DNA from: Eubacteriales bacterium
GTDB taxonomy: Bacteria > Bacillota > Clostridia > Lachnospirales > Lachnospiraceae
Reading direction: 5' to 3'
Length of the DNA: 37,098 nucleotides
NCBI GenBank assembly: GCA_030526665.1
Contig: JAUNCI010000007.1
Span: forward strand, 1 to 37,098
Of the stretch, positions 8,266 through 31,358 are shown in pieces (within the stretch, counting starts at the first letter, position 1; every line of letters starts with the position of its first letter). The notes under the pieces were generated by a model that saw only the letters and a program-made list of their open reading frames with translations, did not search any database and had not been told where the DNA came from. The position numbers were made by a program, and so were the translations under genes.

Positions 8266-8355
8266 AAGGTCTTTGGTTACTGACGGATGAGAGTGGAGTT
8301 TACCACAGTGGAATCAAAGAATCGACAATTTTTGAAAGCCGACCGTCTGGGCAGT
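8266..8355 (+). promoter_or_regulatory. ZTP (pfl) riboswitch controlling fhs
   Basis: The RNA matches the ZTP/ZMP riboswitch layout by eye. Outer helix P1 pairs CTTTGGTT (8271-8278) with AATCAAAG (8312-8319). The conserved ACTGACGG internal-loop strand follows the 5' arm. The GTGG...CCAC hairpin sits in the middle with GTGGAA after it. The terminal GCCGACCGTCTGGGCA block (8338-8353) corresponds to the conserved GCCGCCUGGGC segment that forms the pseudoknot and ligand site. ZTP and ZMP accumulate when 10-formyl-THF is short, so the natural output is higher fhs expression. The 3' GGGC overlaps the terminator stem that follows, giving a plausible transcriptional ON switch. THF riboswitch features are absent. 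Confidence 0.85.
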
Positions 8356-8385
8356 ATTTGAAGCGCAAATACTGCCTTTTCTTTT
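8350..8385 (+). terminator. Riboswitch expression-platform terminator
   Basis: GGCAGTATTTG (8350-8360), loop AAGCG, CAAATACTGCC (8366-8376), a perfect 11-bp stem, then TTTTCTTTT. Its 5' arm shares GGGCA with the riboswitch P3 block, so ligand-stabilised folding should disfavour termination. Confidence 0.9.
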
Positions 8386-29753: not shown

Positions 29754-29782
29754 TTGACATTTTTTCTTATAAAGTGTATGTT
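29754..29782 (+). promoter_or_regulatory. Promoter of the mgtE leader and mgtE
   Basis: TTGACA (29754-29759), 17-bp spacer, TATGTT (29777-29782). Predicted start is near 29789, giving a leader of about 210 nt before the mgtE ATG. Confidence 0.7.
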
Positions 29783-29792
29783 TTAATAGGTA

Positions 29793-29820
29793 TGATGTCG
29801 ATATTATGAAATTGACATCA
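29793..29820 (+). promoter_or_regulatory. Hairpin at the start of the mgtE leader
   Basis: TGATGTC (29793-29799) and GACATCA (29814-29820) form a perfect 7-bp stem with a 14-nt loop, at the predicted 5' end of the transcript. It could also be an operator, being an inverted repeat next to the promoter. Confidence 0.4.
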
Positions 29821-29848
29821 ATTTATTCTATGACAAGGAGGCTAAAAT

Positions 29849-29935
29849 ATGGACGCGGATAGTAGTAGCGGCACGACAGATATCCCTTTACAGACAAACG
29901 CGAATCATTTGCGTCTATATAAGTCTGTTAGATAG
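29849..29935 (+). CDS. Leader peptide ORF upstream of mgtE (28 codons)
   Basis: An ATG at 29849, preceded by AAGGAGG 7 nt upstream, opens a frame of 28 codons ending in TAG at 29935. The peptide begins MDADSSSGTTDIPLQ, with two acidic residues at positions 2 and 4, and ends basic (HLRLYKSVR). It sits between the mgtE promoter and mgtE. This recalls the MgtL leader peptide of enteric bacteria, which also begins with acidic/Pro codons and senses Mg2+ through ribosome stalling or drop-off; that parallel is inference. TCTAT at 29914-29918 inside the ORF and TCTAT at 29947-29951 can each pair with ATAGA at 29932-29936, which overlaps the stop codon, so ribosome position could choose the fold. Confidence 0.6.
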   Translation: MDADSSSGTTDIPLQTNANHLRLYKSVR

Positions 29936-29999
29936 ATTTCGTTGTGTCTATACTTCAATCTCTGTACGAATATTATTCTAAAAGAGGAGGAAGAAACAC

Positions 30000-31358
30000 A
30001 TGACAGATGCATTAGAAACACTTCGCACCAGTATTAAAGCACTGTTCGAAGCAAAAAAATATGCCACTCTTCGTGACATTTTATCTACAATGAATGCAGC
30101 TGATATTGCATCTTTATTTGAAGATGATATTTCAGAAGAAATCATACCACTTCTGTATCGCCTGTTGCCAAAAGAACTTGCGGCAGATACTTTTGTTGAA
30201 ATGGATACCGACACTCAGGAAATGCTGATCAAGAGTTTTTCCGACAGTGAGTTAAAAGAGGTCATCGATGAGTTATATGTCGATGATGCGGTTGACCTCG
30301 TTGAGGAAATGCCTGCAAATGTTGTAAAACGAATTCTGCTGCAGGCGGATCCTGAAAAACGTGCAATGATCAATACCATGCTGAAATATCCGGAAGATTC
30401 TGCCGGAAGTATCATGACAACAGAGTATGTGGAATTAAGACCACGCATGACTGTTGAAGATGCTATTTTGAGCATTCGTCGAAGCGGTATCGAAAAAGAA
30501 ACCATTAATAACTGTTATATTACCTCTTCTGCACGTAAACTTCTCGGTGCAGTTACTATTCGAGGTATTATCATGGCAGCTCCTGAAACCACCATGGAAC
30601 AGATTATGGAAGAAAACGTAATTTCCGTTGGAACCATGGAAGACCAGGAAACCGTTGCGCAGCACTTTTCCAAATATAATTTACTTGCCATGCCTGTTGT
30701 TGACGGGGAGGATCGTCTGGTCGGTATTGTTACTGTCGATGACGTTCTCGATGTCTTAGAAGAAGAGGCAACAGAGGATATTGAGAAAATGGCCGCTATC
30801 GTGCCGGCGGATAAACCATATCTGAAGCTTTCCACTTTCGATCTTTGGAAAAGCCGTATCCCATGGCTGCTTCTGTTAATGATTTCCGCTACTTTTACAG
30901 GCATGATCATCACTAGTTTTGAAAATGCATTATCCAAATTCGTTATTCTTACAGCATATATCCCGATGTTGATGGATACCGGCGGAAATTCCGGCGGTCA
31001 GGCCTCTGCTACCATCATCCGTGGATTATCTCTGAAGGATATTGAGTTTTCCGATATTTTCCGGGTAATCTGGAAAGAGATCCGCGTGGCTCTTGCCTGC
31101 GGTGCAACATTGGCTATCTGCAATTTCGCGAAACTGCTTCTATTCGATAAGGTTTCGGTACCGGTTGCACTTACGATCTGTCTGACACTGATTGTAACTA
31201 TTTTCTGTGCAAAGCTGGTAGGCTGTACTCTTCCAATGATTGCCTACAAAATCGGATTTGACCCTGCAGTTATGGCCAGCCCATTCATTACAACTATCGT
31301 TGATGCCATTTCACTGCTTGTTTACTTCCAGTTTGCCAGCAGAATTCTTTCGATATAA
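30000..31358 (+). CDS. mgtE: Magnesium transporter MgtE
   Basis: A 452-aa Mg2+ channel. The N-terminal alpha-superhelical domain (about 10-125) senses Mg2+ and is followed by two CBS domains (about 135-255) and five membrane helices (about 285-450). The selectivity segment MDTGGNSGGQASATIIRGL (GGNSGGQ at 328-334) is present and is diagnostic. AGAGGAGG lies 9 nt upstream of the ATG. It is transcribed alone from a promoter about 215 bp upstream, with a long leader holding a small ORF. No M-box sequence was recognised. A strong terminator follows. Acts in the plasma membrane, with gating by cytoplasmic Mg2+. Confidence 0.97.
   Translation: MTDALETLRTSIKALFEAKKYATLRDILSTMNAADIASLFEDDISEEIIPLLYRLLPKELAADTFVEMDTDTQEMLIKSFSDSELKEVIDELYVDDAVDLVEEMPANVVKRILLQADPEKRAMINTMLKYPEDSAGSIMTTEYVELRPRMTVEDAILSIRRSGIEKETINNCYITSSARKLLGAVTIRGIIMAAPETTMEQIMEENVISVGTMEDQETVAQHFSKYNLLAMPVVDGEDRLVGIVTVDDVLDVLEEEATEDIEKMAAIVPADKPYLKLSTFDLWKSRIPWLLLLMISATFTGMIITSFENALSKFVILTAYIPMLMDTGGNSGGQASATIIRGLSLKDIEFSDIFRVIWKEIRVALACGATLAICNFAKLLLFDKVSVPVALTICLTLIVTIFCAKLVGCTLPMIAYKIGFDPAVMASPFITTIVDAISLLVYFQFASRILSI

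Follow-up and report, generated by a model that had tools for sequence, protein, structure and literature searches.

Sensing of Mg2+ through acidic nascent peptides has been described for the enterobacterial genes mgtA and mgtB (PMC8092293, PMC11282234). As far as the available text of these reports goes, low Mg2+ causes ribosomes to drop off on the E-P-D-P stretch of the MgtL leader peptide, upon which mgtA is transcribed, and this control acts via a Rho-dependent terminator (PMC11282234). In Salmonella, mgtQ is an open reading frame (ORF) of 8 amino acids in the mgtC-mgtB intergenic region, with an AGGAGG Shine-Dalgarno (SD) sequence and acidic residues at Asp2 and Glu5; by the same partial account, these residues destabilise the ribosome, so that stem 2:3 forms and the mgtB ribosome-binding site (RBS) is freed, the alternative fold being 1:2 plus 3:4 (PMC8092293). 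Dependence on L31 (rpmE) and induction by low Mg2+ are further features of MgtQ-type attenuators. Two further ORFs in the Salmonella mgtCBRU leader, mgtM and mgtP, were reported there to respond to ATP and charged tRNA-Pro (PMC8092293). In mycobacteria, the M-box was described, in the sections available, as controlling a small ORF that is specific to Mycobacterium and precedes pe20 and related genes (PMC12810186), and the mgtE motif SRC-65-1 appears in the accessible text as a riboswitch candidate from one genus only, Thioalkalivibrio (PMC11109978).

The subject of this study was the leader of an mgtE gene in a stretch of 37,098 nucleotides (nt) from an Eubacteriales bacterium of the family Lachnospiraceae (assembly GCA_030526665.1, contig JAUNCI010000007.1, positions 1 to 37,098), the whole of which is called the window here. 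The gene (30000..31358, on the + strand, as are all features located below) encodes a 452-residue Mg2+ transporter with a PF01769 match at 30960-31328 (E 7.3e-39). No report of a clostridial mgtE leader peptide was found among the matches listed from the open-access literature, which held few subscription papers and no supplements, and a term search of the accessible main texts of PMC8632094, PMC6429828 and PMC2965389 did not return 'mgtE'. Our findings suggested that the mgtE leader is probably a ribosome-controlled translational attenuator, following an MgtQ- and ermC-like logic, with low Mg2+ as its signal. In ermC-type attenuators, the position of the ribosome on a leader ORF selects between RBS-occluding and RBS-freeing stems; this ribosome-position logic is the same, although the stall is drug-induced there, and to our knowledge ermC-type control has no link to Mg2+. 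By sequence comparison, we showed that the leader ORF has coding-type conservation and an acidic N-terminus, that the leader contains three covarying pairings, and that such ORFs are linked to Mg2+-transporter genes.

The leader ORF and its conservation

The upstream ORF (uORF) of the window, MDADSSSGTTDIPLQTNANHLRLYKSVR, spans 29849..29935 (ATG at 29849, TAG at 29933-29935) and ends 64 nt ahead of mgtE; an SD sequence, AAGGAGG, lies at 29835..29841, and SD-like sequences were also found ahead of the uORFs of relatives. Its 28 codons encode an acidic N-terminus (MDAD, with Asp2 and Asp4) and a basic C-terminus (RLYKSVR), as the first-pass annotation, made from the letters of the window alone, had described. 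The same annotation placed the uORF in a leader of about 210 nt, a length that fits because a promoter-like TTGACA-17-TATGTT site sits at 29754..29782; the site is a consensus match only, with 3 such matches found against 2.2 expected in shuffles.

Relatives were compared over 80 named mgtE homologues (L031-L110) and 30 further ones, with the uORFs counted by peptide pattern, without an SD condition, in the 330 nt read upstream; L002 and L004-L007 (outside the 80) and L048 (inside the 80) were left out by name. A window-type uORF of the conserved family MDA[DG]SSSGT stood ahead of mgtE in 50 of the 80 named loci, which together with the window (L001) and L003 gave 52 leaders; adding the SD condition gave 41/72. 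The uORF peptide of L031, whose MgtE is 82% identical, was MDADSSGTAQVPIRIKNAVSAPVSSYIT, and further relatives carried MDADSSSGTAKVPIQYHRN... (L033), MDAGSSNGTLAVPLCNRA... (L036), MDAGSTGGTAGRER... (L044) and MDAGSSSGTIPDRRR... (L063).

Three looser members of the 52 (L038, L057, L100) had no MD[AT][DG] start, leaving 49 strict cases. Among these, codon 2 was GAC (39) or GAT (10), codon 3 was GCT (25), GCG (12), GCA (10), GCC (1) or ACT (1), and codon 4 was GGC (25), GAC (13), GGA (5), GGG (4), GAT (1) or GGT (1). Nearly all variation at codons 2-3 fell on the third base, codon 4 additionally exchanging Gly and Asp. The stretch ahead of Gly-Thr, read in 43 uORFs, was 2, 3 or 4 codons long (4, 33 and 6 cases) and always changed by whole codons, and one uORF started with GTG in place of ATG. 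Third-base variation, whole-codon length changes and the ATG/GTG exchange therefore indicated coding-type conservation, and the uORF is presumably translated. The C-terminal half was not conserved as a peptide, which made a role in cis likelier than a functional small protein. Purely coding conservation was argued against by the Gly codon of Gly-Thr, which was GGC in 43/43, and by serine codons that were mostly AGT, so that the RNA must be constrained too. Alignment of mgtE upstream regions from relatives, which the first-pass annotation had proposed as a check, thus found the ORF conserved with synonymous bias and its pairings covarying.

Searches across whole genomes were less telling. A peptide HMM (hidden Markov model) run over 196 genomes matched 48 of them at E <= 1, the window itself (29849-29932) at 3.5e-9 and the rest at 0.0018 or worse; matches beyond the window were judged uninformative because the conserved part is the N-terminus only. 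A DNA pattern run over 391 genomes matched 5, including the window and one other (G373) in which the match also lay upstream of mgtE, and the reversed pattern used as a control matched 2. The association of the peptide with Mg2+ transporters therefore rests on the gene-anchored surveys described below and not on these genome-wide searches.

Alternative pairings and predicted effects of ribosome position

Five segments of the window leader were distinguished: the uORF start region TIR (ATATGGACGCGGAT, 29847..29860); R1 (GTAGCGGCACGAC, codons 6-10, 29865..29877); E, in the 3' half of the uORF (ATTTGCGTCTATAT, 29907..29920); D (GTTGTGTCTATACTTC and TCTCT, 29941..29963); and the mgtE RBS with its start (29983..30004). 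In the leaders as read, GGCAC, from the Ser-Gly-Thr codons, complements a conserved GTG[TC]C... strand (D) 3' of the uORF, D is complementary to the mgtE RBS (ccttgtc/gacaagg in L064, ccttgc/gcaagg in L044 and L091), and the uORF start (ATGGACGC) complements strand E.

Covariation was tested for eight segment pairs in 42 non-redundant leaders, 9 of 51 having been dropped as near-duplicates, with partners swapped between loci and shuffles as controls. Three pairs beat both controls over the 42 loci: TIR:E (p=1.1e-12 vs swapped), D:RBS (p=2.4e-10) and R1:D (p=1.6e-8). None of R1:RBS, TIR:D, E:D, E:RBS and TIR:RBS exceeded the swapped control, TIR:D exceeding the shuffles only (p 6.8e-3). As R1:D and D:RBS were both supported, D can pair with either of two partners. 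In the window, TIR:E joins 29847-29860 with 29907-29920 in 14 pairs, R1:D joins 29870-29877 with 29941-29948 (GGCACGAC/GTTGTGTC), and D:RBS comprises 29941-29947/29998-30004, 29953-29956/29990-29993 and 29959-29963/29983-29987.

A different switch had been drawn in the first-pass annotation, in which ATAGA overlapping the uORF stop codon (29932-29936) would pair with TCTAT either upstream or downstream. Both pairings can form: the minimum-energy fold joined ATAGA to TCTAT at 29827-29831, and masking of the uORF start let it pair, within 29932-29937, with 29946-29951. Comparison did not support them as the switch, the conserved pairings being TIR:E, R1:D and D:RBS instead.

The 42 leaders were then folded with a ribosome footprint kept free of pairs, and the accessibility of the mgtE RBS was taken as its mean probability of being unpaired. 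Mean RBS accessibility was 0.331 with no ribosome, 0.397 with the ribosome at the uORF start, 0.294 at codons 4-12 and 0.354 further along; in silico, the RBS was more open with the ribosome at the start than at codons 4-12 in 37/42 loci (p=1.3e-8). The difference of 0.103 fell to -0.006 when the D region was shuffled and to 0.019 when codons 5-14 were shuffled, remaining above zero in 20/42 and 30/42 sets, respectively. These effects are predictions of an energy model, and their size is modest.

The GGCAC motif began mostly 18-24 nt past the A of the uORF start (range 12-24), and R1 of the window begins at +16 to +21. Given the size of the ribosome footprint, GGCAC lies just past the leading edge of a ribosome on the start codon; therefore, mgtE should be switched on when the ribosome is delayed or recycled on the first codons. 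In the proposed mechanism, with no ribosome on the leader, TIR would pair with E and the mgtE RBS with D, keeping mgtE off. If a ribosome were held at the first codons of the uORF, or re-initiated there again and again, TIR:E would break and R1 would be free to capture D, opening the RBS and switching mgtE on. A ribosome elongating over codons 4-12 would cover R1, returning D to the RBS and mgtE to the off state. Low Mg2+ would favour the on state by destabilising or delaying ribosomes on the acidic N-terminus, at Asp2 and, in the window, also Asp4. The gene association points to low Mg2+ as the signal, and the trigger would be destabilisation or delay of the ribosome at Asp2, by analogy with the published accounts of enteric MgtL and MgtQ. 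On this view, the Mg2+ sensor would be the ribosome, which could either replace an M-box or work in tandem with it.

Acidic uORFs across Clostridia and their relation to the M-box

PF01769 was matched in 200 of 292 genomes of the class Clostridia. The survey joined 130 class-wide leaders (L146-L275) to L001-L020 and L031-L110, a total of 230 loci, of which 20 were dropped for a short upstream stretch or as near-duplicates, leaving 210; mgtE starts were chosen by script, and 100 of the 230 loci, found through the MgtE protein, were biased towards the clade of the window. A uORF was counted when it had 15-50 codons, an SD match >= 5 and Asp or Glu at residue 2. Such a uORF was present in 104/210 mgtE leaders, against 2.5 +/- 1.5 (max 5) in 30 rounds of dinucleotide shuffling, and by set in 7/20, 41/72 and, in the class-wide sample alone, 56/118. 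Any SD-preceded uORF was found in 129/210 leaders vs 30.3 in shuffles. Residue 2 of the 160 SD-uORF candidates was Asp in 97 (61%), compared to 3% in shuffles, and Glu in 10. The 56 class-wide positives, counted by hand, spanned 29 families of the GTDB, though a few singletons may be chance.

The same definition was applied to control genes, with the longest ORF of the locus taken at a script-chosen start, and it returned 0/30 for trkH, 0/25 for other P-type ATPases (below the mgtA cut-off) and 0/19 for Nramp (19 of 30 fetched loci, at E 1e-20 or better with the gene unsplit). Among corA leaders, 3/30 were positive (MDIDPYPNYS, MDTDPYPNRS and MDSDPGGSRD in L294, L299 and L302), as was 1/5 of the mgtA leaders above the cut-off (MDGSPDGLCN). 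Acidic leaders were carried by the mgtA loci L306 and L308, the ORF of L306 (MSDESSSGMEPDG...) falling outside the definition. Fisher tests against trkH plus the other ATPases gave p 1.7e-14 for mgtE and 0.04 for corA. With 104/210 mgtE leaders and some corA and mgtA leaders positive vs 0/74 control genes, the Asp/Glu2 uORF was linked to Mg2+ transporters.

The uORFs fell into several sequence types, including MDAGSSSGT-like, MDAGGNSG-like, MDAYPGR-like, and MDxxPLP, MDPxPLP, MDPYPEP and similar. Residues 2-4, the first of which had been selected for, were 42% D/E and 0.3% K/R, and residues 9-20 were 18-20% K/R. The MDxxPLP, MDPxPLP, MDPYPEP and similar leaders (together MDxxPLP-type) made up 25 of the 104 acidic mgtE leaders, with codon 2 as GAT (22), GAC (2) or GAA (1). 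Pairing was tested in 24 of the 25, with the candidate nearest mgtE taken where a locus had two, and with each leader split into the uORF start (1), its early part, its later part (2), the pre-RBS region (3) and the RBS (4). Three pairs exceeded the controls: 3:4 (p 0.0058 swapped, 1.2e-5 shuffled), 2:3 (0.0075 and 2.5e-4) and 1:2 (0.039 and 2e-4); the other seven were not above the swapped control in the 24 leaders. On balance, we lean towards the wider reading that, across Clostridia, the ribosome itself is the Mg2+ sensor for mgtE, and sometimes for corA and mgtA, several unrelated Asp2/Glu2 peptide types having been built repeatedly into translational attenuators, some with a tandem M-box.

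The absence of a recognisable M-box from the window leader, as first annotated, agreed with Rfam, in which no family reached its gathering score there and the M-box covariance model (RF00380) was unmatched; three snoRNA families and bxd_6, at E 1.8-8.4, were rejected as chance-level matches. An M-box was found in 15 of the 80 close homologues, 5 of which also carried the uORF, downstream of it (L031, L032, L034, L068, L099), and, among class-wide leaders picked by hand, in 7/20 uORF-positive and 5/20 uORF-negative cases. Leaders carrying both ruled out strict exclusion of one by the other, and their co-occurrence indicated separate modules able to stand in tandem. In L031, a Clostridiales-1 RNA (RF01699) lies at 1142-1299, between the M-box (945-1098) and the uORF.

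Other leader features were noted beside these. In the genus of the window, leaders of a distant mgtE paralogue (L022-L030, 24-26% identical) carried a second conserved uORF, M-D-S-C-D-S-H-G-R-S with close variants, found in 9 of the 10 loci L021-L030 with ATG and GTG starts, TCT/AGT exchange at Ser and an SD region AAAGGCAGGTGAACAGA; the beginning of this uORF can fold back onto its 3' part, as in L025 (AACAGAATGGA / TCCATTCTGTT). The mgtE leaders L094, L096 and L097 had another uORF type (MTNNSSPDSSIPGRSS..., MKKSSKSYSTDVPLPGRQN...) that is still open at the mgtE start, which suggests overlap with mgtE and translational coupling. Among MDxxPLP-type uORFs (for example L160, L162 and L182), a C-terminal motif recurred (AITT...VWL and the like), the codons of which (GCCATAACTACT) complement the uORF start region in L160 and L162 (GTAGTTATGG, or GTAGTTGTGG with G-U pairs), and this motif may reflect an RNA constraint. 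Elsewhere in the window, a ZMP/ZTP riboswitch was identified at 8266-8359 (RF01750, 55.1 bits).

Alternative explanations and comparison with known systems

Several observations weigh against a ribosome-controlled attenuator. In the window itself, predicted RBS accessibility shifted little, from 0.41 with no ribosome to 0.52 with one on the start codon, 0.38 at codons 1-12 and 0.45 at codons 11-22 (in these folds the masks were set one base too late, counted from the ATG at 29849). Part of D would also be hidden under a ribosome on the stop codon (accessibility 0.49), and the helices CTTC:GAAG and TCTCT:AGAGG remained in every state folded. Part of the N-terminal conservation could lie at the RNA level, as the TIR:E helix includes GGACGC and the GA of codon 2. 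Strong intrinsic destabilisation by the window peptide is not assured, because it has two acidic residues near its start, without E-P-D-P or a nearby proline. No acidic uORF of the surveyed kind was found in 106/210 mgtE leaders, M-box and uORF are not mutually exclusive, and the swapped-control p value for 1:2 in the MDxxPLP-type leaders would fail correction, because ten pairs were tested.

The same leader peptide might act through transcription termination, Rho-dependent as reported for MgtL in the available part of PMC11282234, in place of RBS occlusion. A terminator-like hairpin does occur in the window, at the 5' end of the leader between promoter and uORF (29793..29820, TGATGTCGAT...ATTGACATCA, 10 pairs, 3 of them G-C; 1 found vs 0.1 expected), and it is possibly an extra control ahead of the uORF. 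Between uORF and mgtE, however, a terminator-like site was found in 1/51 leaders, so translational control fitted better than intrinsic termination; D covaried with the mgtE RBS itself, and the mgtE SD core was paired in the minimum-energy fold of 34/51 leaders. We consider a termination output unlikely.

It also seems improbable that the uORF reports a signal other than Mg2+, such as charged tRNA, ATP or the general rate of translation. Such signals have a precedent in mgtM and mgtP, as partially seen in PMC8092293, and proline-rich uORFs exist in our survey, but the uORFs preceded mgtE and some corA and mgtA genes and none of the 74 control genes, an acidic residue 2 was common to the surveyed groups (it was also a selection criterion), and some uORF leaders also carried an M-box.

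An RNA-only switch, with D, R1, TIR and E forming an RNA that binds Mg2+ or a ligand and the ORF incidental, would account for the strong covariation and the invariant third base of GGC, and a pseudoknot would be needed for TIR:E and R1:D to form together. Such a switch would not explain third-base variation at codons 2-3, length changes by whole codons, a GTG in place of ATG, or the preference for Asp at residue 2 of the SD-uORF candidates; moreover, the 25 MDxxPLP-type uORFs used all four Pro codons within codons 2-9 (CCT 35, CCC 11, CCG 6, CCA 4). We regard it as quite a distant prospect. Least probable is a leader that simply serves re-initiation or coupling, so that more MgtE is translated and nothing is sensed: re-initiation leaders have reportedly been proposed in bacteria (PMC4833913), and 17/24 MDxxPLP-type uORFs ended 10-35 nt ahead of mgtE, but this would require neither a conserved acidic N-terminus nor competing pairings, and the window uORF stops farther upstream, at 64 nt.

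If the wider reading is correct, the clostridial leaders would be the Gram-positive equivalent, reached by convergence, of enteric MgtL and MgtQ, and nascent-chain Mg2+ sensing would be a widespread principle. Should the clostridial mgtE leaders work in this way, the instability of ribosomes on acidic nascent N-termini at low Mg2+ would have been recruited in distant bacteria, to control another family of transporters at the level of translation. The many natural variants (MDAGSSSGT, MDSGPLPG, MDPYPEPN, MDSCDSHGRS and others) could be leveraged to define Mg2+-sensitive nascent chains, and a route for mgtE regulation would be suggested for Clostridia without an M-box on mgtE.

Among known systems, the M-box (ykoK leader, RF00380) is similar in that it controls Mg2+ transporters in cis and also occurs on mgtE in these genomes, and differs in having no match in the window. 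The mycobacterial arrangement likewise combines an M-box with downstream uORFs in a single leader, with a translational platform, but the accessible part of that paper describes no acidic leader ORF on mgtE with a strand that captures the RBS (PMC12810186). SRC-65-1, too, is an RNA element that precedes mgtE, and its SD and AUG are located where a stem begins; no leader ORF is described for it in the portion available (PMC11109978).

The first-pass annotation had compared the leader to enteric MgtL, as analogous but unrelated in sequence. A peptide-coding attenuator on mgtE, with synonymous bias in the ORF and covarying pairs, was in keeping with the analogy, and both systems, judging from the partial text on MgtL, combine an acidic or proline-containing N-terminus with control of a Mg2+ transporter by translation of a leader ORF. 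The window peptide, MDADSSSG, differs in its lack of E-P-D-P or of a proline near the start, in its gene (mgtE, not mgtA) and in an output that is likely translational. The lack of sequence relation holds for the window family, but the MDxxPLP-type leaders encode peptides close in kind to the destabilising E-P-D-P of MgtL. The best-matching mechanism was that of MgtQ. As far as mgtQ is documented in the text available (PMC8092293), it shares with the clostridial leaders a short ORF, a strong SD and Asp at codon 2, and, in silico, a transporter RBS held in a stem whose partner strand can pair upstream with a uORF-linked strand, the RBS being predicted to open when translation of the uORF is slowed or aborted; the 1:2, 3:4 and 2:3 pairings of the MDxxPLP-type leaders have the topology reported there. 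The mgtQ ORF encodes 8 amino acids and lies within an operon, ahead of mgtB, in enterobacteria, whereas the clostridial ORFs encode 20-36 amino acids in the 5' leader of mgtE, and in the window family it is R1, located in the loop of TIR:E, and not E, that would capture D.

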